Shown piece by piece: positions 5,166 through 32,202 of a DNA stretch of 32,202 bases. The translations under genes and the position numbers were made by a program. How positions within the stretch are numbered: the stretch's first letter is position 1; each line of letters begins with the position of its first letter. Below the pieces are notes generated by a model. That model saw nothing but the letters and a program-made list of their open reading frames with translations, had not been told where the DNA came from and searched no databases. The stretch lies in contig JZEL01000022.1 of assembly GCA_001567365.1 (NCBI GenBank), positions 1 to 32,202 on the forward strand, read 5' to 3'. This stretch comes from Parcubacteria bacterium OLB19. GTDB lineage: Bacteria > Patescibacteriota > Minisyncoccia > Phycocordibacterales > UBA918.

Positions 5166-6953
5166 GTGACTCTTGTAGCTGGTGAGGAACAAACCAAAAT
5201 AATACCTAATTCATGTTTTGTTCAGATCTTAGAAGAAGATAATAATCCATCTCATAGTATTAATGAAAACGTTAATATAAAACCTAATGAAAACCTACAA
5301 CTAACTTGCTTGGTAATAAATCCTAGTCAACAGACGTTAAATGTTAATCCGGTGTTTGAAACTTATAAGTACAGTTCTTATGGACAAGTGGTTGCCCAGA
5401 GCGATGTCCCTACTCCTGTAACTACTTTAGTTGGTCATGAGGAAAAAATGCTTTCTATAATTTTACCAAAAGCTAATACATCACAGGCTTATAAAGTAAA
5501 AGTTGCTTTGTCATCAGAGACGGGTATCTCTAATCCTGTAATAGTTGGTTATACTCTTGGTGAAGATTTTGCCAATATATCTAACGCTTGGCTTGATAAG
5601 GAGCAATATAAAGCTGGAGAAACAGCTAAATTGTCTTTTATTTGGTCTCCTTTTATAAAGGAATTTTCTACTAGTTCAGATATGATTTCATCAGAAATCA
5701 ATTTTGAAGCAATCATTAAAAGCGCTGATGGTAAAAAATGTACAGAAAGTGTTAGTCAAAAAGTATCTGGTAAATCAGATTCTCCAAAAGTCGAAGCAGA
5801 AATTCCGGTGACTGCAGATTGTGTCAATCCAATAGCGGTAGTTACTCTAAAAGATAGTAACGGGAAAATTTTGGACACCTTACCTTCAAATATAGCGATT
5901 GAGTCTGTGATTGAAACACCTGAACCTAATGATGTGTATCAAAGTCCAAAAAATGAAATTTTGAAACTTATTGTCATAATTGTCGCCTTTACCGGTATTT
6001 TAATTTTTCTAATTTCTTATTTAAGAAAGAGACAAGAAGAAAATGGTGGCGATGATTCAAATTCAAACATAACTAAGACATTTATATTTGCTTTCTTGTT
6101 TATAATGGCAGGCAGTATGATGCCAGCAGAAGTAGGAGCGGTAACGTATTGTAGTAACCATTCTCCTAAAGACCCACATACATGTATTTCTGTCTCTTTT
6201 AATTTAGATAAGAGTAGTTATATTCCCTCAGAGAATATAAAAGTGACGGCTGGTCTGACTGCAAATTCTACTTATATTAATTCTTTTCTTGAAGTTCAAG
6301 GTAAGGGCGAGAAAAGTACTGGAGAAGTATTTCTTCCTTATCGATGGTTCCATAAAGGAACTTACACTGGCCCAGCTTCTACTGTAACAAATATAACTGC
6401 GCCATTTACCAATGGAAGTTATTGTTTTATGCCTAGATCTGGAATTAATTGGGGGGCTTTACCTTTTACTGCTTGGGGATACGGACCTTGTGTTAGTTTT
6501 ACTGTAGCACCTGCTACTCTTGCTCCGACCTCAGCTACAATAAATTTAAGTAAAAGTTCTGTTACAGAAACTGAAGGTCTAACTGTATCTTGGTCTGGTA
6601 ATAATTCACCTACATATTATAGAGTCAAGGTTAATTCTACGGAATATGATATGGGGTCGGCTGTTTCAATTTTTGGAGCCCCTTCCGATTTGAGTCTTGG
6701 TGCTGGTAATCATAACTTCTACGCTATGGCGTGTAATACTGCTGGTTGTAGTCCATGGAGTCTAGTCAAAGTTCTAACTGTTACTGCCGTCGCCCCTGCC
6801 CCCACCCTAACCTTCACTGCTTCACCAGCCACCGTTACCTCAGGTGGGGCTTCAACTCTGACTTGGTCTACCACCAATGCTACCGCTTGTACCGCTTCTG
6901 GTGCTTGGTCAGGTTCTAAGTCTACCAACTCTTCACAATCACTGGTGCTTTAA
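5166..6953 (+). CDS. Middle fragment of the giant surface protein: beta domains, internal TM, second signal-like segment
   Basis: The GTG at 5166 is only the first start-like codon after the break; the true frame enters from ~5087. The content is extracellular-type beta domains, then a membrane helix (KLIVIIVAFTGILIFLISYL, about residues 265-285) followed by charged KRQEENGG. A second hydrophobic stretch (TFIFAFLFIMAGSMMPAEVGA) looks like another signal peptide with a signal-peptidase-like site. A Cys-containing domain and the first Ig-like repeat follow. The internal anchor plus signal may mean two fused secreted proteins. The frame breaks again near 6941: SSQSLVL and stop replace the expected SSQSTGAL. 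Confidence 0.75.
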   Translation: MTLVAGEEQTKIIPNSCFVQILEEDNNPSHSINENVNIKPNENLQLTCLVINPSQQTLNVNPVFETYKYSSYGQVVAQSDVPTPVTTLVGHEEKMLSIILPKANTSQAYKVKVALSSETGISNPVIVGYTLGEDFANISNAWLDKEQYKAGETAKLSFIWSPFIKEFSTSSDMISSEINFEAIIKSADGKKCTESVSQKVSGKSDSPKVEAEIPVTADCVNPIAVVTLKDSNGKILDTLPSNIAIESVIETPEPNDVYQSPKNEILKLIVIIVAFTGILIFLISYLRKRQEENGGDDSNSNITKTFIFAFLFIMAGSMMPAEVGAVTYCSNHSPKDPHTCISVSFNLDKSSYIPSENIKVTAGLTANSTYINSFLEVQGKGEKSTGEVFLPYRWFHKGTYTGPASTVTNITAPFTNGSYCFMPRSGINWGALPFTAWGYGPCVSFTVAPATLAPTSATINLSKSSVTETEGLTVSWSGNNSPTYYRVKVNSTEYDMGSAVSIFGAPSDLSLGAGNHNFYAMACNTAGCSPWSLVKVLTVTAVAPAPTLTFTASPATVTSGGASTLTWSTTNATACTASGAWSGSKSTNSSQSLVL

Positions 6954-7783
6954 GCTCAACTCAAACCTACACCCTAAAGTGTGATGGTGCGGGTGGTTCA
7001 GTTACTAAGAGTGTGACCGTAACGGTGAGTGCCGTCGCCCCCGCTCCCACTCTAACCTTCACCGCCTCACCAACCACAGTCACTCCAGGTAGCGCCTCCA
7101 CTCTTACTTGGTCAGCTACTAACGTCACAACTTGTATTGCTTCTGGTGACTGGTCAGGATCTAAAGCAACAGGCGGATCTCAATCAACCGGTGCTTTAAG
7201 TACTGTTAAGACTTATACATACACCTTGCGTTGTATTGCTCCTGGGGGAGATATTACAAGAAGTGTGACCGTGAGTGTGAGTTCTGTCGCACTTGCCCCA
7301 ACTCTAACTTTCACCGCTTCACCAACCACAGTCACTCCAGGTGGCGCTTCCACTCTCACTTGGTCTAGTACCAACGTCACAACCTGTATTGCTTCTGGTG
7401 ATTGGTCAGGATCTAAAGCAACAGGCGGATCTCAATCAACTGGTGCTCTATTTTCATCCAAAACCTATAGTCTTACCTGTACTGGCGCAGGAGGTAGCGT
7501 AAACAGAAGTGTAACTATAAATGTTGGTACTGTTACACCAGCCCCAACTCTCATTTTTACGGCTTCTCCAACAACTGTCTCTTCGGGCGGATCTTCTATG
7601 TTAAATTGGTCGGCTACTAATGTCACTACTTGTATTGCTTCTGGTGATTGGACTGGATCAAAAGCACTTAGTGGTTCACAGTCAACAGGAGTCCTTACAA
7701 CTGTTAAAACCTATACTTATACTTTGCGTTGTATTGCTGCTGGCGGTGACATAATTAGAAGTGTAATAGTAAATGTTACTCCT
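6789..7783 (+). repeat. Four tandem Ig-like repeats (82-84 residues each)
   Basis: Units start at 6789, 7034, 7286 and 7532 with V-x-x-A-P-T-L-x-F-T-A-S-P-x-T-V and contain TLTWS, C(T/I)ASG-x-W(S/T)GSK and a second Cys. Unit lengths are 245, 252, 246 and ~252 bp. Units 1 and 3 (TY-x-L-x-C) and 2 and 4 (TYTYTLRC) pair up, suggesting duplication of a two-domain block. Unit 1 is one base short of 246, which marks the second frame break. Confidence 0.9.
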
Positions 7784-8431
7784 GTTGTACCCGTTGCTCC
7801 ATCAATCGGTACTATTACAGCAGATGACTGTACCATTATGGTGGCTGGAGAGTCAGAGTGTGACACTAAAGTTAGATGGAATGCCCCAGGTTATATTAAC
7901 CCTAAAGTTTATCAAGGAGGTAAACCATTGGTATTTGATCTAGCGGTATCACCTCCAGGTGGTTATCCAACAAAGATGAAGTTTAATACTAGAACTTTCC
8001 GCTTGTACGATAACAGTATCTTTGGTGTAGTTCCTGGGACAGATACATCATATACAGCTAATATTTATTGTGGACCAGGATTGGAAATGAATACTAGTGG
8101 TGTGTGTGTGATGAGTACTGTAGGGGTCACACCTTTACCAGCAAATATAGATATAATTGTAGAACCATCTATTATTCGTTCAGGTGATACGACTAGGGTT
8201 AGAGTAAAAGTTGAAACATCATCACCAGCAACCTGTACTCATTATGGTATACAAAACAGTCCTGGAATTCTGACTCATGATGGATCACCTTCTTCTCAGG
8301 ATTGGAATTTAACCACTAGACCATTAATGAGTACACAAATTATAAAAGTTAAATGTGTACTTGATGGTCTTGGTATAGAGTCAGAGAAAGAGGAAAGAAT
8401 AAATGTAATTCCGAATTTCGAAGAAACATAA
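7013..8431 (+). CDS. C-terminal fragment of the giant Ig-repeat surface protein
   Basis: As read it starts at a GTG inside the end of the first Ig repeat; the true frame comes from upstream after the one-base loss near 6941. It contains three more Ig-like repeats, then a distinct domain with paired cysteines (DDCTIMVAGESECDTKVRW, later CGPGLEMNTSGVCV) and a final beta domain (VEPSIIRSGDTTRVRVKV) with two more Cys. There is no C-terminal anchor or sortase motif. The ending IPNFEET is followed by a strong terminator. It is probably a filamentous or adhesin-like surface protein; Ig-like modules of this kind are generic binding or spacer domains, so no ligand can be named. Confidence 0.75.
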   Translation: MTVTVSAVAPAPTLTFTASPTTVTPGSASTLTWSATNVTTCIASGDWSGSKATGGSQSTGALSTVKTYTYTLRCIAPGGDITRSVTVSVSSVALAPTLTFTASPTTVTPGGASTLTWSSTNVTTCIASGDWSGSKATGGSQSTGALFSSKTYSLTCTGAGGSVNRSVTINVGTVTPAPTLIFTASPTTVSSGGSSMLNWSATNVTTCIASGDWTGSKALSGSQSTGVLTTVKTYTYTLRCIAAGGDIIRSVIVNVTPVVPVAPSIGTITADDCTIMVAGESECDTKVRWNAPGYINPKVYQGGKPLVFDLAVSPPGGYPTKMKFNTRTFRLYDNSIFGVVPGTDTSYTANIYCGPGLEMNTSGVCVMSTVGVTPLPANIDIIVEPSIIRSGDTTRVRVKVETSSPATCTHYGIQNSPGILTHDGSPSSQDWNLTTRPLMSTQIIKVKCVLDGLGIESEKEERINVIPNFEET

Positions 8432-12872: not shown

Positions 12873-13577
12873 TTGTATAATCAATATCATTTTAATGGCG
12901 GATCACTTCTGGTGTTATTGCAAGAGCAAGAACCGTTTGTATTGTCAGGGATGTCTGGTACGGTGATTGGTAGTCGAAACGACGACTCAATTACTCTTCT
13001 GGGGCCAGAGTCAAAAATTGCTTTGGCTGGTGCTGGCGACGACATAATCGTTTCGTCTTTTGAAACAGACGGAATGACTGGTCCAGCGGAAAATTATATA
13101 TATGGCGGATCTGGTGACGATGTCATTGTTAGTACTGGCTTTACTGCCGATGAGATTTTTGGCGGTGCTGGTGATGACGAAATCATTATAGGTAGCTTCG
13201 TTACTAATATTAGTGGGGGCGAAGGTTCTGATACTTTCACTTTTATGGAAATATCAGAGTCGTACTCAGCGTCTTCCATAAATGACTTGTCATTTATGGA
13301 AGGTGATGTTATCAACCTTTCATGGCTCACATCCTCTGGTTATGTATTGGAGTGGGATTCAACCGATCCAGACTTTATTGCTGTGGAATCTGTCAGTAAT
13401 CCTGATTATTCTGAATATAAGGATTATGATGATGAAGGTGACGATGGTGAAGGTTACTGGACTGATAATTATGGATCTGAGTTTCAGTTGGACCTGTATG
13501 TTTTCGGTCTCGGTGAGCAGATTGAATTAATCGGCGGACTGGAAACGGCTTTGGCAGAGGGTTATGTCGTAATATAA
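12873..13577 (+). CDS. RTX-like calcium-binding repeat protein
   Basis: 234 residues from TTG 12873, chosen because AAAGGAG lies at the right distance and no in-frame ATG precedes it. Glycine/aspartate nonapeptide-like repeats are visible: GAGDDIIV (53-60), GGSGDDVIV (78-86), GGAGDDEII (97-105) and GGEGSDTFTF (115-124), followed by the capping FMEGDVINLSWL. The C-terminal half is very acidic (DYDDEGDDGEGYW). RTX repeats fold as a calcium-loaded beta-roll outside the cell, usually after type I secretion; no such exporter or signal peptide is seen here. It has its own strong promoter and terminator. RTX proteins are not a typical CPR feature, so transfer is possible. Function unknown. Confidence 0.75.
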   Translation: MYNQYHFNGGSLLVLLQEQEPFVLSGMSGTVIGSRNDDSITLLGPESKIALAGAGDDIIVSSFETDGMTGPAENYIYGGSGDDVIVSTGFTADEIFGGAGDDEIIIGSFVTNISGGEGSDTFTFMEISESYSASSINDLSFMEGDVINLSWLTSSGYVLEWDSTDPDFIAVESVSNPDYSEYKDYDDEGDDGEGYWTDNYGSEFQLDLYVFGLGEQIELIGGLETALAEGYVVI

Positions 13578-25982: not shown

Positions 25983-26030
25983 CTTAATAAACAAAACCCT
26001 CGGTATATTCCGAGGGTTTTGTTTATTAAG
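25983..26030. terminator. Terminator after rplB
   Basis: A 21-bp perfect stem (CTTAATAAACAAAACCCTCGG) around TATATT. Confidence 0.9.
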
Positions 26031-26140: not shown

Positions 26141-26168
26141 TTGACATTTTGTTATTATATTATATAGT
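26141..26168 (+). promoter_or_regulatory. Promoter of the sigma-factor gene
   Basis: Consensus TTGACA (26141-26146), 16-nt spacer and TATAGT (26163-26168). The gene also has a good Shine-Dalgarno. Confidence 0.7.
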
Positions 26169-26215
26169 ACAAGCTGTTTTTGTTATTTCTTGTTCAATTA
26201 CATGAAAGGAAGATT

Positions 26216-27031
26216 ATGACATCTCAATCTGCTACAGTCGTTTTAGATAGTTCTTCAAATTCAGAACCCGATGCCTTTCTTAAAAAGCTAGCTCTTGCAC
26301 AAAAAGGTAATGCTAAAGCCATGAATGATTTATTTAATGAATTCTTATTTTTAGTAAAGATAGAAGCTGGATTGTTTTTTAAAAAGGGTACAGGTCTATA
26401 TTATTCGTATGAAGATTTGTTTCAAGAAGGAGTTATCGGTTTGTTTGATGCGGTAAGACGTTACAAATTTTATGGTAACTTTAAAGCCTACGCTCCTTTT
26501 CGTATCAGGGGTCAAATCATAGATTCTTTACGAGGTAACTCACATTTTTCTCGTAAGATGTTAGTTGATAACAGTGTGATGGACGAAGCTATTCATAAGT
26601 TATCACAAACACTGTTTCGTGAACCGACTGTCGATGAATTAGCAGAATCTTTGTTAAAATCAAAACTCAGCAGAAACGCCGAGATTATATTTGAGGCCCG
26701 GCAGATATTTTTGGAGCAGAATGATTTCGATAGATTTTCCTCAAATCTTATTACTCCTGAAGTTATTTTATCGGGTAATGAGTATGAGAGTAAAATTCTG
26801 GAACTCATCAATATTATCAGAAATAACTCTTTTCTCAACGAAAGAGAAAAGTTTGTGCTGGATGAAAATATTCTTCCTGTGTCTGGTGAGGTTAAAACAC
26901 TGAAAGAGATAGGTGTGGAAATCGATGTTTCGGAATCAAGAGTTTGCCAAATTAGGCAAGAAATATTGAAAAAAATTCGTAAGTATTTAAGAAGAAATAA
27001 TCCAGAATTATTGAATTACTTTTCAGATTAA
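26216..27031 (+). CDS. Alternative sigma factor of the sigma-70 family (FliA/WhiG/SigB-like)
   Basis: 271 residues from ATG 26216, preceded by AAAGGAAG; an upstream frame to 26180 adds 12 unlikely residues. Region 2 is clear: YEDLFQEGVIGLFDAVRRY followed by FKAYAPFRIRGQIIDSLRG, the pattern of the SigB/FliA/WhiG group. Region 3 is weak (TVDELAESL). Region 4 has LNEREKFVLDENI and the helix-turn-helix LKEIGVEIDVSESRVCQI with RQEILKKIRKYLRR. Region 1.1 is missing, as expected for an alternative factor. No anti-sigma gene is adjacent. It may direct the following envelope operon or the surface-protein genes, but those promoters look like ordinary sigma-70 boxes. Confidence 0.88.
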   Translation: MTSQSATVVLDSSSNSEPDAFLKKLALAQKGNAKAMNDLFNEFLFLVKIEAGLFFKKGTGLYYSYEDLFQEGVIGLFDAVRRYKFYGNFKAYAPFRIRGQIIDSLRGNSHFSRKMLVDNSVMDEAIHKLSQTLFREPTVDELAESLLKSKLSRNAEIIFEARQIFLEQNDFDRFSSNLITPEVILSGNEYESKILELINIIRNNSFLNEREKFVLDENILPVSGEVKTLKEIGVEIDVSESRVCQIRQEILKKIRKYLRRNNPELLNYFSD

Positions 27032-27049
27032 TGTGATAAGTATTTATTG

Positions 27050-27078
27050 TCACTCCACTTTGGTGGGGTGATTTTTTT
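27050..27078 (+). terminator. Terminator of the sigma-factor gene
   Basis: TCACTCCAC (27050-27058) pairs with GTGGGGTGA (27063-27071), followed by T7. Confidence 0.9.
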
Positions 27079-27135: not shown

Positions 27136-27149
27136 TATAATCCCGTTTG
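27136..27149 (+). promoter_or_regulatory. Extended -10 promoter giving a leaderless envelope operon
   Basis: TATGCTATAAT, an extended -10 with TATAAT at 27136-27141, lies seven bases before GTG 27149. Transcription should start at the GTG. Confidence 0.6.
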
Positions 27150-28612
27150 TGAAAGAGAAAATTATTAATTTTATCCAACTTTACTCCAAACAGATTGTTT
27201 TAATAATGTTTGTTTTGTTAAGTTTGTTAGTTGTCACAGCTTATTTTGTAGACAAAAAATCAATCAATGAAGCAAATGAAAGCGAAACTAGGCAGGTTCC
27301 AAATGCTGATGATCCTAGTACTTGGGCACTATTTCCATGGTCTCCTTCGTCGGAAGAAAATGAAGCTCCTGATAAGCTTTCTTTTGTGAGTTCTACTACA
27401 ACCTATCCTTTAAATTATGAAAATTTAGCTAGTGGTAAAATTGCTATTTCTGGAATTAATTTAAATGAAGATTACTATAATGATAATCAAACTGGTTTCG
27501 GTTATCTTTTGTTTAATAAGGGCCTATCATATAATTGTGTACCTTACCCAAATGACACTATCTACAATTGTGATGGTTTTAAGGAGGGGGTAATTAGACT
27601 GCTTGATGTCGTCAGTATTCCTGTAAATAAAAATTGGCCAGATTACTTAACTGAGTATCCTAATGGTCTTATTATTTTTGAATATTCTACTAGTTCTACC
27701 AAGAAAATATTTTTAGCTTCATTAGTAAATACATATAATAAAAATATTGTTATCTTTGATCGGTTTAAAGTTTTGGATTTGCCTCTAGGTCAGGATTATT
27801 CTTTGGTTTATGAAGAGGGTAAAAATGTGCTTTCAGATTTCGGTTACCATAATGTTAAGGTTGTAGGAGGAGGTTTAGAAAAAAGTTTCACTTTAGAGAC
27901 GATATCTCTTAGAGGTTATGTTGGTAGGATTTCTGAAAGAGAGGGAAATAAAATAATTAATAAATTTATTAACTATAAAGGTTATTTTGATAATGAGGCA
28001 GGTTACACAAAATATACAAAAGAGGGAGTATTAACCATCTCTCATAGTCCAGATAAGTTTTGGCTTCATGAATTTTATGCCCGTACGCAGCTTTTCTCAC
28101 CCTGGAACACAACTATTAAGGAAGATATGTATCATAAAAATGATTGTGGTTTACCATACAGTTTTTCTGATATGGCTCTAAATATTAGAAGTGGTGAAGA
28201 TTTTCACGCTAGTTTAGAAGTATCAATACCAAACAATAAGTCTTATTATAATTTGACTACTGCAATGTATGGTTATGAGCCAGAAGAATGGGGAACCATA
28301 ATAGATACGGTAAATGTGCAAGCCTATCGTGAGGCTATTAAAAAGGGTTTGCCATTTAATGGTTATAGAACAGAATTATTGACCATAGCTGGTGTTCCTG
28401 TCAGACATACATTGCCCTTTGATTCATCTCGTCCATGCGATGGTTCTGTGTATGAATCCTATCAATGGGTGAAGGAAGGAAATATTTACACTTTGGAATT
28501 AGTTACAGAAAAAGAGACAGAAACAGCACCAGTCGAACAGTCTTTTATTAGAAGTGTATTGGAGGAGATAATTAATGGTGCAAGTTATGTACCTTCAGAA
28601 ACTATTCAATAG
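27149..28612 (+). CDS. Membrane-anchored extracytoplasmic protein of unknown function
   Basis: 487 residues from GTG 27149. A longer frame from 27047 would start inside the sigma-gene terminator and is rejected. A basic N-terminus (KEKIINFIQLYSK) is followed by one membrane helix (IVLIMFVLLSLLVVTAYF, ~15-32) and a large polar domain with NYENLASGKIAISGINL, YNCVPYPNDTIYNCDG (paired Cys) and NDCGLPYSF. There are no recognised catalytic motifs. Its 3' end overlaps the next gene by up to 38 bases, so it is the first gene of a four-gene operon with a GT-C-like protein and two Mur-type ligases. That context suggests an envelope assembly or modification role. Confidence 0.75.
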   Translation: MKEKIINFIQLYSKQIVLIMFVLLSLLVVTAYFVDKKSINEANESETRQVPNADDPSTWALFPWSPSSEENEAPDKLSFVSSTTTYPLNYENLASGKIAISGINLNEDYYNDNQTGFGYLLFNKGLSYNCVPYPNDTIYNCDGFKEGVIRLLDVVSIPVNKNWPDYLTEYPNGLIIFEYSTSSTKKIFLASLVNTYNKNIVIFDRFKVLDLPLGQDYSLVYEEGKNVLSDFGYHNVKVVGGGLEKSFTLETISLRGYVGRISEREGNKIINKFINYKGYFDNEAGYTKYTKEGVLTISHSPDKFWLHEFYARTQLFSPWNTTIKEDMYHKNDCGLPYSFSDMALNIRSGEDFHASLEVSIPNNKSYYNLTTAMYGYEPEEWGTIIDTVNVQAYREAIKKGLPFNGYRTELLTIAGVPVRHTLPFDSSRPCDGSVYESYQWVKEGNIYTLELVTEKETETAPVEQSFIRSVLEEIINGASYVPSETIQ

Positions 28613-29924
28613 TCACACTCTAAGTTTTTTTAGTCTAGCTATATTATTTGTCGTGGTGCATGGCTGGTTATTTTTTAAATACCAGTCTTGGTTAGTTTTA
28701 GGTTTTGATACTGGATTTTATAGACGATATTTACTTGAACCTCTAACTTCAATACCGCACGCTTCGGTTCCTGGGCTTGATCATACAGTTATAATACCGA
28801 GGGTATTTATAGATGTTTTTAGATTGACTGGTTTGTCGACTGATGTTGTTTTGTATGGTTCATACATATTGGCAATAATAATATTATTGATCTCTTTTTA
28901 TTTTTTTGTAAAAGAAATTTTTACAAAAAAGATAGCTTATCTAGCAACAATATTACTGATATTGTCACCAGTTTATTTTCATGCTTTTTGGTTTTTCCTA
29001 TTTAAAAATTTTTTGGCATTGTCTTTATTTTTCTGGTTACTTATATCAATAAGACGAAAAAGTTGGTGGTTGATAATTTTTCTTTCCCTAGCTATACCCG
29101 TTACTCATCAAAGTACTACAGTAATTGCTGGAGTAATTGTCTTTGTGTATGCGGTAATATTATTTTGGCGTAAAGAAAATTTTTGGTTACCGCTTGGTTC
29201 TTGGTTTATATTGACTTCAATATACTTAATTTATCATCCAACAGTTTCTGCTAAATTATCTGCTCCACCCGTCGCAGTATTTATTGACTGGTCAAATTTT
29301 ATACAGATGATCTGGCCTTTATTGGTTTTGGTTCTGGCAGGCTTTTGGGCTACTAAAGATAGATTTTTTGATAAAAATGATCTAATTTCTTGGTCGTTAG
29401 TTGTGATATTATTTCTAGCTTTTTCTTTGCCTTATCATGAGAGAGTATTTTTGTTTGCGATTTTTCCTTTAGCTATTTTGGGTGCGGTGATTTTGTCTCG
29501 GTTGAATCTAGTAAAAATTTTAATAGTATTATTCCTTTTCCTTTTCTTCTGGATTTATTCTATTCAAACTTACTCACCATATTTTTCTTCGGCTGAAGTA
29601 AGGAGTTTGCAAACTTTGGAATCCTTAAATAAAAATGACAATGTTATTACTCCTAATTTTATGGCGCCTTGGGTACATGGTTATACTGTAGCAAAAGTGT
29701 TTGCTCCAGGAGTGTTTAAAGATCCTTATTCACCAATAGATTGGGAATTGTATTGGTCGCATAATGAACCTTCATATGACAGAGCTTTCTTAAACGCTTT
29801 TCCTCAGCCTCTTTATTTTTATATTCCAAAAGGACAGGAATATTTTCTTCCTGAACAAGTATGTGTAAATAAGATAAATGATGCACTCTATTTATACATT
29901 TGTAATAAAAATGATTATGAATAA
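28575..29924 (+). CDS. Polytopic membrane protein, GT-C-glycosyltransferase-like
   Basis: 449 residues with about ten hydrophobic helices and a soluble C-terminal part. The first loop holds GFDTGFYRRYLLEPL, whose Asp and FYxR pattern resembles the first-loop acidic motif of GT-C enzymes using polyprenyl-linked sugars. A later loop has IPVTHQSTT. The C-terminal region (NVITPNFMAPWVHGYTVAKV) resembles the periplasmic end of such transferases. Assignment rests on layout, not on a firm signature. The start could be 28575 or the ATG at 28587; both overlap the previous gene. The end overlaps the MurE-like gene. Coding T7 runs at 28625-28631 and 28901-28907 are in frame. Confidence 0.65.
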   Translation: MVQVMYLQKLFNSHTLSFFSLAILFVVVHGWLFFKYQSWLVLGFDTGFYRRYLLEPLTSIPHASVPGLDHTVIIPRVFIDVFRLTGLSTDVVLYGSYILAIIILLISFYFFVKEIFTKKIAYLATILLILSPVYFHAFWFFLFKNFLALSLFFWLLISIRRKSWWLIIFLSLAIPVTHQSTTVIAGVIVFVYAVILFWRKENFWLPLGSWFILTSIYLIYHPTVSAKLSAPPVAVFIDWSNFIQMIWPLLVLVLAGFWATKDRFFDKNDLISWSLVVILFLAFSLPYHERVFLFAIFPLAILGAVILSRLNLVKILIVLFLFLFFWIYSIQTYSPYFSSAEVRSLQTLESLNKNDNVITPNFMAPWVHGYTVAKVFAPGVFKDPYSPIDWELYWSHNEPSYDRAFLNAFPQPLYFYIPKGQEYFLPEQVCVNKINDALYLYICNKNDYE

Positions 29925-31071
29925 ATTGTGGTTAAAATTAATTGATAGGCTACACATATTATATTCTTTGTGGGGAATATTGTTTTATAAACGACGGTAT
30001 AAAAATATTTTTATAATAGGTGTGACTGGGACTGATGGAAAAAGTTCCACTGTAGTTTTGACAGCACGATTATTAAGAAAGTCAGGAATAAAAACCGCTC
30101 ATTATTCTTCTATTAGTATTAATGATGGTGAGGATGAGGTTATGAATGTATATAAAATGACTACTCCTGGACGAGCTGGTCTTCATAAATTTTTAGCAAA
30201 ATCTGCAAAAAATAATGTAACTCATGCCGTGGTTGAGATAACTTCAGAGGGTATAAAGCAATGGAGACATTTGGGTATAAAGTTTAATACTTTAGTTTAT
30301 ACTAATATCACACCTGAGCATATTGAAAGACATGGTTCTTTTGTAAATTATAAACAAACAAAATTATCGCTATTAAAATCTCTGAAGAACACCTCAAGTG
30401 ATTTTGTGGTTTGGAACGGTTTGGATAAAGAATTGATTTCTGAATTTGAATTATTTAATAAATACAAAAATTATAAATTACAGACATCAGCTAATAGTAT
30501 TAATTCCGAAAATCCTTTTATAGATATTAACTATCAGTTAGCCAAGCTTGTAACTGATAAGTTGGGTGTTGTTGTAAACTTGACTGAAGCAGAAAAACAG
30601 TTGCCTGGAAGGTTTGAATATTACAAAGGTAGTCCTTCAGTTTTGATTGATTATGCTCATACGCCAAATGCTTTGAGTATTTGTTTGCAATCAGCTAGGA
30701 AACTTTGTTCAGGCAGATTGATACATGTTTTTGGTGCCGCTGGTGGCGGTAGAGATACTTGGAAAAGACCACTCTTGGCAAAAATTTCTGAACAATATGC
30801 TGATGTGCATATTTTGACTGAAGAGAATTCTTTTGATGAACCAGTTATTAAAATCTTAAATGATATAAAAGCTGGTTTTAGTGCTGATGCAGAAGTGTAT
30901 ATGGATTTACTCAGAGAAGAAGCTATTAAGCGAGCTTTTAAAATGGCAAAACCTAAAGATTTAATTGTTTGTACAGCCAAGGGTTCGGAAACTGTTATTG
31001 CTGGGCCAAGGAGAAGTAAAAGACTTTATAACGAACGTGAATTTATTAAATTATGTTTAAATCAAAAATAA
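29917..31071 (+). CDS. MurE-like Mur ligase lacking the N-terminal domain
   Basis: ATP-dependent amide ligase of the Mur superfamily, 384 residues from ATG 29917 (alternatives 29911 or 29878), overlapping the preceding stop. P-loop GVTGTDGKSST (35-45). MurE-style blocks: VVEITSEGIKQWR, TNITPEHIERHG, LPGRFEYYK (arginine of the VxGRxE motif), VLIDYAHTPNAL, and GAAGGGRDTWKRPLL. The N-terminal UDP-MurNAc-binding domain of standard MurE (~100 residues) is absent. The DNPR amino-acid-specificity motif reads ENSFDEP. So the acceptor may not be UDP-MurNAc-dipeptide, nor the added residue diaminopimelate. It overlaps the MurF-like gene by 19 bases, implying coupled production. Confidence 0.85.
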   Translation: MNKLWLKLIDRLHILYSLWGILFYKRRYKNIFIIGVTGTDGKSSTVVLTARLLRKSGIKTAHYSSISINDGEDEVMNVYKMTTPGRAGLHKFLAKSAKNNVTHAVVEITSEGIKQWRHLGIKFNTLVYTNITPEHIERHGSFVNYKQTKLSLLKSLKNTSSDFVVWNGLDKELISEFELFNKYKNYKLQTSANSINSENPFIDINYQLAKLVTDKLGVVVNLTEAEKQLPGRFEYYKGSPSVLIDYAHTPNALSICLQSARKLCSGRLIHVFGAAGGGRDTWKRPLLAKISEQYADVHILTEENSFDEPVIKILNDIKAGFSADAEVYMDLLREEAIKRAFKMAKPKDLIVCTAKGSETVIAGPRRSKRLYNEREFIKLCLNQK

Positions 31072-32036
31072 TTAAGTTATTGGCTAGTTTTATATTTTTA
31101 CTTCGTAAAAAAACCTTAACAAATTCTAAGGTGAAGTGGGTGGTTTGTAGCGGTAGTGTTGGTAAAACCATTATGAGGCGATCTTTATTTCTGTCTTTAT
31201 CTAAAATTAAAACGGAAAAATTTTTAACTCCGAATACAGATTATTGTAATGAAATCGGTGTACTTTGTGCGTTTCTAGATATTAAAAATTTTTTCGTTTT
31301 TTCCATTAAAAGTCTAGTGGAGATTTTTACTAAAAAACCGATTAGTGATAGTTATGTTTTGATTGAACTCGGTGCTGACTTTAGACTTGATATTGATTGG
31401 TTTTTAAAACGCTGGTCTCCATCGATTGTAATTTTAACAATGGGTACTAGTTATCATTGGACAAAAGAAATTGAAGCGGTTTTAAGGTCGCGTCTTAGAT
31501 TGTGTCAGTCTATTTTACCAAACGGAAAAATTTATGTATCTGAGGATGACTTTGTACATTTATCTTTACTAAAAAAAGAAAACATTATTTTTAATAAAAT
31601 AGACAATAATCTAGAAGATATATATTTTTACCCAAGAGAGGTTTTGATAGCTTGGAGTGTCTTAGAAGGGTGGGGGGAAATTGAATTTATTTCGTTTAAC
31701 AAGAATCGTTTCGAGGTAATTAAGTCTGAAGGAAAGACTATCATAAAAGATACTTATAAAGTAACTCCTGTGTGTTTTGCTTATTTTTTGAAAAGTGTTT
31801 TACATGCAAGAGGTGATAAAAAGATTTTGTTAATAACAGAGATTCGTCCTTTGAAAGTTGATGTTGCTGGTTTATATAAAATATATTTAGCTGATTTGAA
31901 AAAAATTAATAAAATTTATTTTTATGGAGACGTAAAAGTCTATAATTTCCTCTCTCAAAATTTAAATAATGTATATTGGTTGAACAAGAAAAAACTTTCT
32001 CTTGAAATTTTGGATCTAAAAAAACGAGTTAAATAA
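31053..32036 (+). CDS. MurF-like Mur ligase lacking the N-terminal domain, frame broken at the 3' end
   Basis: A second Mur-type ligase. Degenerate P-loop CSGSVGKTIMRRSL (~32-45); NTDYCNEIGV, in the place of the MurF N-x-N-x-x-x-G-[LV]P block; LIELGADFRLDID, matching MurF EMG-A; and LLITEIRPLK, where MurF has LGDMxELG. The UDP-sugar-binding domain is absent. As read it stops at 32036 after KKRVK. Removing one A from the A7 run (32018-32024) extends it to TAA 32110-32112 with IGIKTSAFYKELNKELA, a plausible MurF-like end (352 aa). Several core residues are changed, so the substrate is probably different from MurF's. It is the last gene of the operon. Confidence 0.78.
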   Translation: MFKSKIIKLLASFIFLLRKKTLTNSKVKWVVCSGSVGKTIMRRSLFLSLSKIKTEKFLTPNTDYCNEIGVLCAFLDIKNFFVFSIKSLVEIFTKKPISDSYVLIELGADFRLDIDWFLKRWSPSIVILTMGTSYHWTKEIEAVLRSRLRLCQSILPNGKIYVSEDDFVHLSLLKKENIIFNKIDNNLEDIYFYPREVLIAWSVLEGWGEIEFISFNKNRFEVIKSEGKTIIKDTYKVTPVCFAYFLKSVLHARGDKKILLITEIRPLKVDVAGLYKIYLADLKKINKIYFYGDVKVYNFLSQNLNNVYWLNKKKLSLEILDLKKRVK

Positions 32037-32126
32037 TAATTCTTTAATCGGTATAAAAACCTCTGCTTTTTACAAAGAGTTAAATAAGGAATTAGCGATA
32101 TTTGAAAAATAAAAATTTTTTGAACT

Positions 32127-32202
32127 AATGAACTACCCCGATGCAGAGCATACGGGGTATCGGCGTTGGATTAGGTGGTAAATAAGGTAGTTTGTACTGG
32201 TG
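32127..32202. repeat. Right copy of the 76-bp terminal inverted repeat
   Basis: Exact reverse complement of 92-167. It contains the same hairpin (ACCCCG...CGGGGT) and the 3' end of a second copy of the partial gene, and it is cut by the window end. Confidence 0.95.
32171..32202 (-). CDS. 3' end of a second copy of the unidentified gene (partial)
   Basis: On the minus strand, the last ten codons (PVQTTLFTT and stop at 32173-32171) equal the end of the gene at 1-123. It points into the segment from the right. Too short to say whether the whole gene is duplicated. Confidence 0.45.
   Translation of the reverse strand, partial: PVQTTLFTT

Follow-up and report, generated by a model that had tools for sequence, protein, structure and literature searches.

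The stretch of DNA considered here, called the window, is the whole contig JZEL01000022.1 (C22; 32,202 bp) of Parcubacteria bacterium OLB19, which belongs to a 905-kb, 91%-complete assembly of 31 contigs. Towards its end, which is at position 32202, the window carries an operon of four open reading frames (ORFs) on the forward strand, 27149-28612, 28575-29924, 29878/29911-31071 and 31053-32036, which encode a membrane-anchored or secreted protein, a GT-C-like membrane protein, a MurE-type ligase (MurE2) and a MurF-like ligase (MurF2). Each ORF overlaps the next, as an initial annotation of the window had described, the set runs up to the contig end, and an in-frame codon signal is present in all four. 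It is near-certain that MurE2 and MurF2 are paralogs, forming a second and divergent MurE/MurF-type pair, and that they lack domain 1, the uridine diphosphate (UDP)-binding domain of Mur ligases.

MurE2 (29911..31071, + strand) is a MurE-type Mur ligase without domain 1 that keeps its catalytic residues, according to profiles, alignment and structure-chain matches. Its longest ORF begins at 29878, and the ATG at 29911 or 29917 is the likelier start. The protein starts at the P-loop and matches the Pfam models Mur_ligase_M and Mur_ligase_C, both above cut-off, and domain 1 is found neither by domain search nor by alignment with solved chains. The MurE model TIGR01085 gives 254.1 bits, marginally under its cut-off of 257.3 and far above every other family: CphA reaches 65 bits, FolC 45, pMurE 33 and MurT 22, the last against a cut-off of 800. 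For both window ligases, all curated models of FolC, cyanophycin synthetase and pseudomurein ligase stay far below their cut-offs.

MurE2 keeps 47 of the 62 conserved MurE columns, and G40, K44, S112, H137, H141, K151, R234, R281 and D282 are retained. Because these comprise the P-loop, the position of the carbamylated lysine and the His and Arg residues, MurE2 is probably an active ATP-dependent amino-acid ligase. The loop at the DNPR site reads TEENSFDEP, with ENSF in place of DNPR, so the motif is missing as the initial annotation had noted; W373 is also altered. In the tree MurE2 falls outside the clade of its class; its branch measures 2.64 changes per column, a length that makes its exact placement unsure.

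MurF2 (31053..32036, + strand; 327 amino acids) is a strongly diverged MurF-fold protein, also without domain 1, as seen by profile, alignment and model. It too starts at the P-loop, and neither ligase shows any Pfam domain beyond Mur_ligase_M and Mur_ligase_C. Its frame is open over 327 codons, with a normal in-frame codon signal in both halves. The P-loop had been called degenerate; it is intact, since GSVGKT is the exact consensus of its relatives, and the degeneracy lies in other catalytic motifs. Among 54 related MurFs 60 columns are conserved, and MurF2 retains 25 of them. The EK pair, whose lysine we take to be the position expected to be carbamylated, is changed to SR, DDxYN to KDTYK, GDMxELG is gone and a histidine is lost. 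Four residues conserved in all sampled MurFs (E266, G268, N236 and H275) are missing, and the MurF model TIGR01143 gives 29 bits, below its cut-off of 288.6. From these losses MurF2 would be a degenerate partner, non-catalytic or nearly so.

The AlphaFold model of MurF2 (predicted local distance difference test score, pLDDT, 70.7; predicted template modelling score, pTM, 0.71) has an N-terminal helix, a P-loop domain and a C-terminal domain, and the structures nearest to it are MurFs (3zl8 with a Foldseek E of 2e-11; 4qf5 with a Z of 23.5, the next Z being 22.7). The alignment behind the model is made up of MurFs and biases it to the MurF fold, so the model supports MurF ancestry without being independent proof of it, and the sequence matches agree.

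The operon had been drawn to position 32112. Read in frame, MurF2 stops at 32036, and a segment in another frame at 32020..32112 on the same strand (NNNSLIGIKTSAFYKELNKELA) reads like a MurF C-terminus when compared with the C-termini of MurFs. About 200 bases short of the contig end, either the MurF2 gene is thus frame-shifted or the assembly is in error.

Contig 26 of the assembly holds another murE (6800-8083) next to ruvA, the usual position in this class, and its product groups with the same genus at 100/100 in the tree. This copy is the normal, vertically inherited murE, and MurE2 as the only MurE of the genome is rejected. MurE2 and the contig-26 MurE (427 amino acids) share a two-domain architecture that starts near the P-loop and the same catalytic residues, with 35% identity over 391 positions. 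MurE2 differs by its length of 386 amino acids, ENSFDEP for EDPYDEN, the absence of the GxFN segment and of W373, and its location in another operon. Another duplication of a MurE without domain 1 is seen in a different genome (L149:4763-7420, G787), where tandem MurE-like genes of 443 and 439 codons follow ruvA.

The initial annotation had proposed a check for a standard murE and murF elsewhere in the genome; the murE is present, and no normal murF was found in the assembly. In a sister genome murF follows ftsI in a lysS-mraZ-mraW-ftsL-ftsI-murF block. The 20-kb segment around that gene matches this assembly by one surface-protein gene, located elsewhere on contig 14, and by short scattered matches. 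FtsI was not found in the assembly by protein search, and a DNA search with the dcw cluster of a more distant relative was uninformative. Because ftsI and most of the roughly 20-kb murF neighbourhood are missing together with murF, an assembly gap is the likeliest explanation, rather than replacement.

Housekeeping MurFs of Patescibacteria have 362-450 amino acids and are encoded after ftsI in dcw clusters. MurF2 has in common with them the MurF fold, GSVGKT near residue 33 and the absence of domain 1, and differs by the loss of the DDxYN, GDMxELG, EK and H275 positions and of a C-terminal portion, at about 20% identity. Orthologs of MurE2 or MurF2 were found neither in 79 relatives and 380 genomes of the phylum nor in GTDB contigs, where the best match has 37% identity. 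As a single query MurE2 gave no match in genome contigs, and its profile gave three distant MurE matches in viral contigs.

The absence of domain 1 had been taken as a sign that both ligases act on a non-murein acceptor. The feature itself stands, but the argument is refuted and the sign rejected, as domain 1 is missing from nearly all MurEs and MurFs of Patescibacteria, including the copies in dcw clusters. Nearly every one of the 79 relatives has one MurE of about 420-450 amino acids; the MurF, if one was matched, is likewise single and measures about 430, and both proteins begin near the P-loop. Other classes of the phylum encode such proteins within dcw clusters, for example mraZ-ftsL-ftsI-murF-mraY-murD-ftsW-murG-murC-murB (L096) and mraZ-ftsI-murE-murB-murF-mraY-ftsW-murG (L145). 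Because they are located with mraZ, ftsL, ftsI, mraY, murD, ftsW, murG, murC and murB, the MurEs and MurFs without domain 1 are the housekeeping peptidoglycan enzymes of Patescibacteria.

TIGR01085 finds MurE in 321 of the 380 genomes, and among the best 150 matches 147 begin at or after model position 48, the exceptions (G783, G591 and G774) beginning at position 1-3. In named Patescibacteria genomes the MurE P-loop lies at residue 34-68 in 14 of 17 cases; the remaining three have it at 91, at 122 with domain-1-like extra length, or are partial. In other phyla it lies at 87-191 in 58 of 60 MurEs; of the other two, one has it at 54, near the end of a contig, and one lies within a fused ORF of 1158 amino acids. 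The MurF P-loop is at 29-77 in Patescibacteria and at 104-199 in others, six sampled MurFs without the exact pattern being left unplaced. Alignment of these Patescibacteria proteins with solved chains of MurE and MurF begins only at about chain residue 75-134. Canonical MurE and MurF, such as those of Escherichia coli and Thermotoga maritima, share the middle and C-terminal domains with the window ligases, the best PDB profile matches being 4bub and 3zl8; they carry in addition about 90 residues of UDP-binding domain 1, which the window ligases lack, matching from chain residue 75-134.

The DNPR motif is replaced in the same group: it occurs in none of 60 sampled Patescibacteria MurEs, which have EDPY (41), EDPR (8) or other sequences, whereas the loci of other phyla contain 54 DNPR motifs. 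This replacement makes the diamino acid of Patescibacteria MurEs uncertain. The MurC and MurD of this genome retain their N-terminal domains. Two MurC-MurD-MurE fusions have a MurE part with domain 1, one of 1341 amino acids (L160:3463-7488, G655), with Pfam Mur_ligase at 909-978, and one of 1338 (L161:3448-7464, G505). Other possible fusions were also seen: a 595-aa ORF of the OLB19 genome itself (L004:859-2643, contig 13) places a NUDIX domain ahead of MurC, whether by fusion or because the two overlap in frame, and a 1158-aa ORF on a Chloroflexota contig (L174:2483-3598), with the MurE P-loop at residue 758, is apparently a further Mur fusion.

No description of the loss of domain 1 in Patescibacteria was found in a limited literature search. 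Most of a bacterial radiation makes its wall with MurE and MurF that lack the domain serving as substrate handle, while in this genome, at least, the domain is retained in MurC and MurD. Whether the substrate of these enzymes is soluble or lipid-linked, and which diamino acid is added, is a testable question, and this group-wide loss is a more interesting lead than the window operon, which is a rare accessory gene set.

The first gene of the operon (27149..28612, + strand) encodes, from a GTG at 27149, a membrane-anchored or secreted protein of 487 amino acids with an N-terminal transmembrane helix and no known family, as judged by ORF, profile and hydropathy analysis. A search for orthologs in 397 genomes gave two weak N-terminal matches only, so it is a near-orphan. 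The second gene (28575..29924, + strand) encodes a GT-C-like polytopic membrane protein of 449 amino acids with about 10 transmembrane segments, assigned by hydropathy and a weak PMT_2 match (E=0.0012; 19.5 bits, under the family cut-off of 26.1), its sole family match. A catalytic Asp in the first outer loop is the feature that would test this assignment, and the sequence has a candidate loop, GFDTGFY. Homologs of the two proteins were absent from all the loci examined. The four-gene order was not seen in the other genomes surveyed, the GT-C-like protein not having been searched itself in whole genomes.

One operon encodes the divergent ligase pair together with the anchored protein and the GT-C-like one. 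We tentatively favour, at somewhat under even chances, an accessory envelope operon restricted to the lineage, whose MurE2 would join an amino acid to an acceptor linked to the membrane or to a glycan, with MurF2 as a degenerate partner. The biochemical roles are hypothetical. MurE2 would add the amino acid to a carboxylate of a membrane-linked peptide or glycan, more likely a lipid-linked muropeptide variant than a free polymer, since by sequence it is nearest to the housekeeping MurE. Its specificity may differ from that of the normal MurE, because the EDP loop and the conserved W are changed. On the outside of the membrane, the GT-C-like protein might add sugars to the anchored protein or to the product.

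Several points weigh against this reading. Substrate and product are part of the hypothesis, the GT-C assignment is weak, and for the anchored protein there are neither relatives nor a usable structural model (mean pLDDT 36.6). The operon is known from one genome, at a contig end. The missing normal murF leaves room for a housekeeping role of MurF2, and MurF2 may simply be decaying.

Decay of the whole set, that is, a laterally acquired or duplicated murE-murF being lost, with MurF2 a pseudoenzyme or pseudogene and an operon without stable function, is unlikely. It would account for the loss of 35 of the 60 conserved positions and the frame change in MurF2, the very long branch of MurE2, the low GC content of the operon (0.28-0.33) relative to the genes upstream and the lack of an ortholog in any sampled genome; the open frame of MurF2 with its normal codon signal and the complete catalytic residues of MurE2 speak against it, and the frameshift, so close to the contig end, may be an assembly error. 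The idea of the initial annotation that the pair produces a free polymer, either a poly-amino-acid or a surface polymer other than murein, by chemistry like that of polyglutamate or folate polyglutamate, appears rather improbable. The neighbouring membrane glycosyltransferase-like and anchored surface proteins and the changed amino-acid loop of MurE2 would suit it, but both ligases are nearest to MurE and MurF and not to FolC, CphA or pseudomurein ligases, and domain-1 loss is not diagnostic in Patescibacteria.

The initial annotation had also held that this is not an ordinary murein pair. The separate murE and the strong divergence uphold that view, while the clues it had relied on, domain 1 and DNPR, turn out to be group-wide traits; of the structure and tree analyses it had proposed, the first returned the MurF fold for MurF2 and the second a long branch for MurE2. 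Ordinary murein synthesis, with MurF2 as the sole MurF in place of the normal one and MurE2 as a spare MurE, is improbable: the failure to find a second MurF favours it, but MurF2 lacks the four residues conserved in all sampled MurFs, and a gap explains better why the sister's mraZ-ftsI-murF-lysS segment, ftsI included, is almost wholly unmatched. A chimeric contig, whose last 6 kb would stem from a different organism and be misjoined after rplB, is very improbable. The GC content does drop from about 0.42 to 0.31 past rplB, and the operon proteins are without close relatives in the genus; however, a terminator at about 25993-26022 closes the rplB unit, the codon signal of the operon matches that of the window's housekeeping genes, and MurE2 is of the Patescibacteria type.

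A precedent for a Mur ligase that lacks domain 1 is MurT, part of the GatD/MurT lipid II amidotransferase. It works at the membrane, amidating lipid I and II but not UDP-linked precursors, and has a short, flexible N-terminus of about 35 residues where the domain would be; the authors of the MurT studies argue that a UDP-binding domain is unneeded in this enzyme and would collide with the membrane (PMC6113224, PMC6085368). MurT differs from MurE2 by a distinct C-terminal domain, a Cys4 zinc ribbon and the partner GatD. No gatD was found among the operon neighbours, and no MurT model exceeds its cut-off for the window ligases. By analogy, most Patescibacteria might finish the stem peptide on lipid-linked intermediates, the window pair being a specialised second copy of membrane-side ligases, which we regard as unlikely. 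MurC and MurD, which keep the UDP-binding domain, would work on UDP-N-acetylmuramic acid (UDP-MurNAc), the short peptide would then pass to the lipid through MraY, and lipid I or II would be the membrane-side substrate of MurE and MurF, which have lost domain 1 and start with a short positive helix like that of MurT. The net charge of this helix is positive in every member and its amphipathicity is just slightly above that of shuffled sequences; the positive N-termini are weak support. A simple domain loss, with the substrate held by the remaining domains, is equally open.

Upstream of the operon the gene order is rplC-rplD-rplW-rplB, the hairpin-T terminator that closes this unit, a FliA/WhiG-like sigma-factor gene (26180-27031, profile match) and a second, strong terminator. 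The latter, found by terminator scan and sequence reading at 27049..27072 (+ strand), has a 10-bp stem and T7 and lies between the sigma-factor gene and the operon. The sigma-factor gene stands directly behind rplB, where rpsS is the usual next gene of the ribosomal operon, and has a -10/-35-like site of its own at 26141-26168. Elsewhere in the window, positions 12873-13577 encode a 234-aa protein with GGSGDD-type repeats reminiscent of calcium-binding RTX motifs, and two big neighbouring ORFs at 5166-8431, of 595 and 472 amino acids, have the appearance of repetitive surface proteins.

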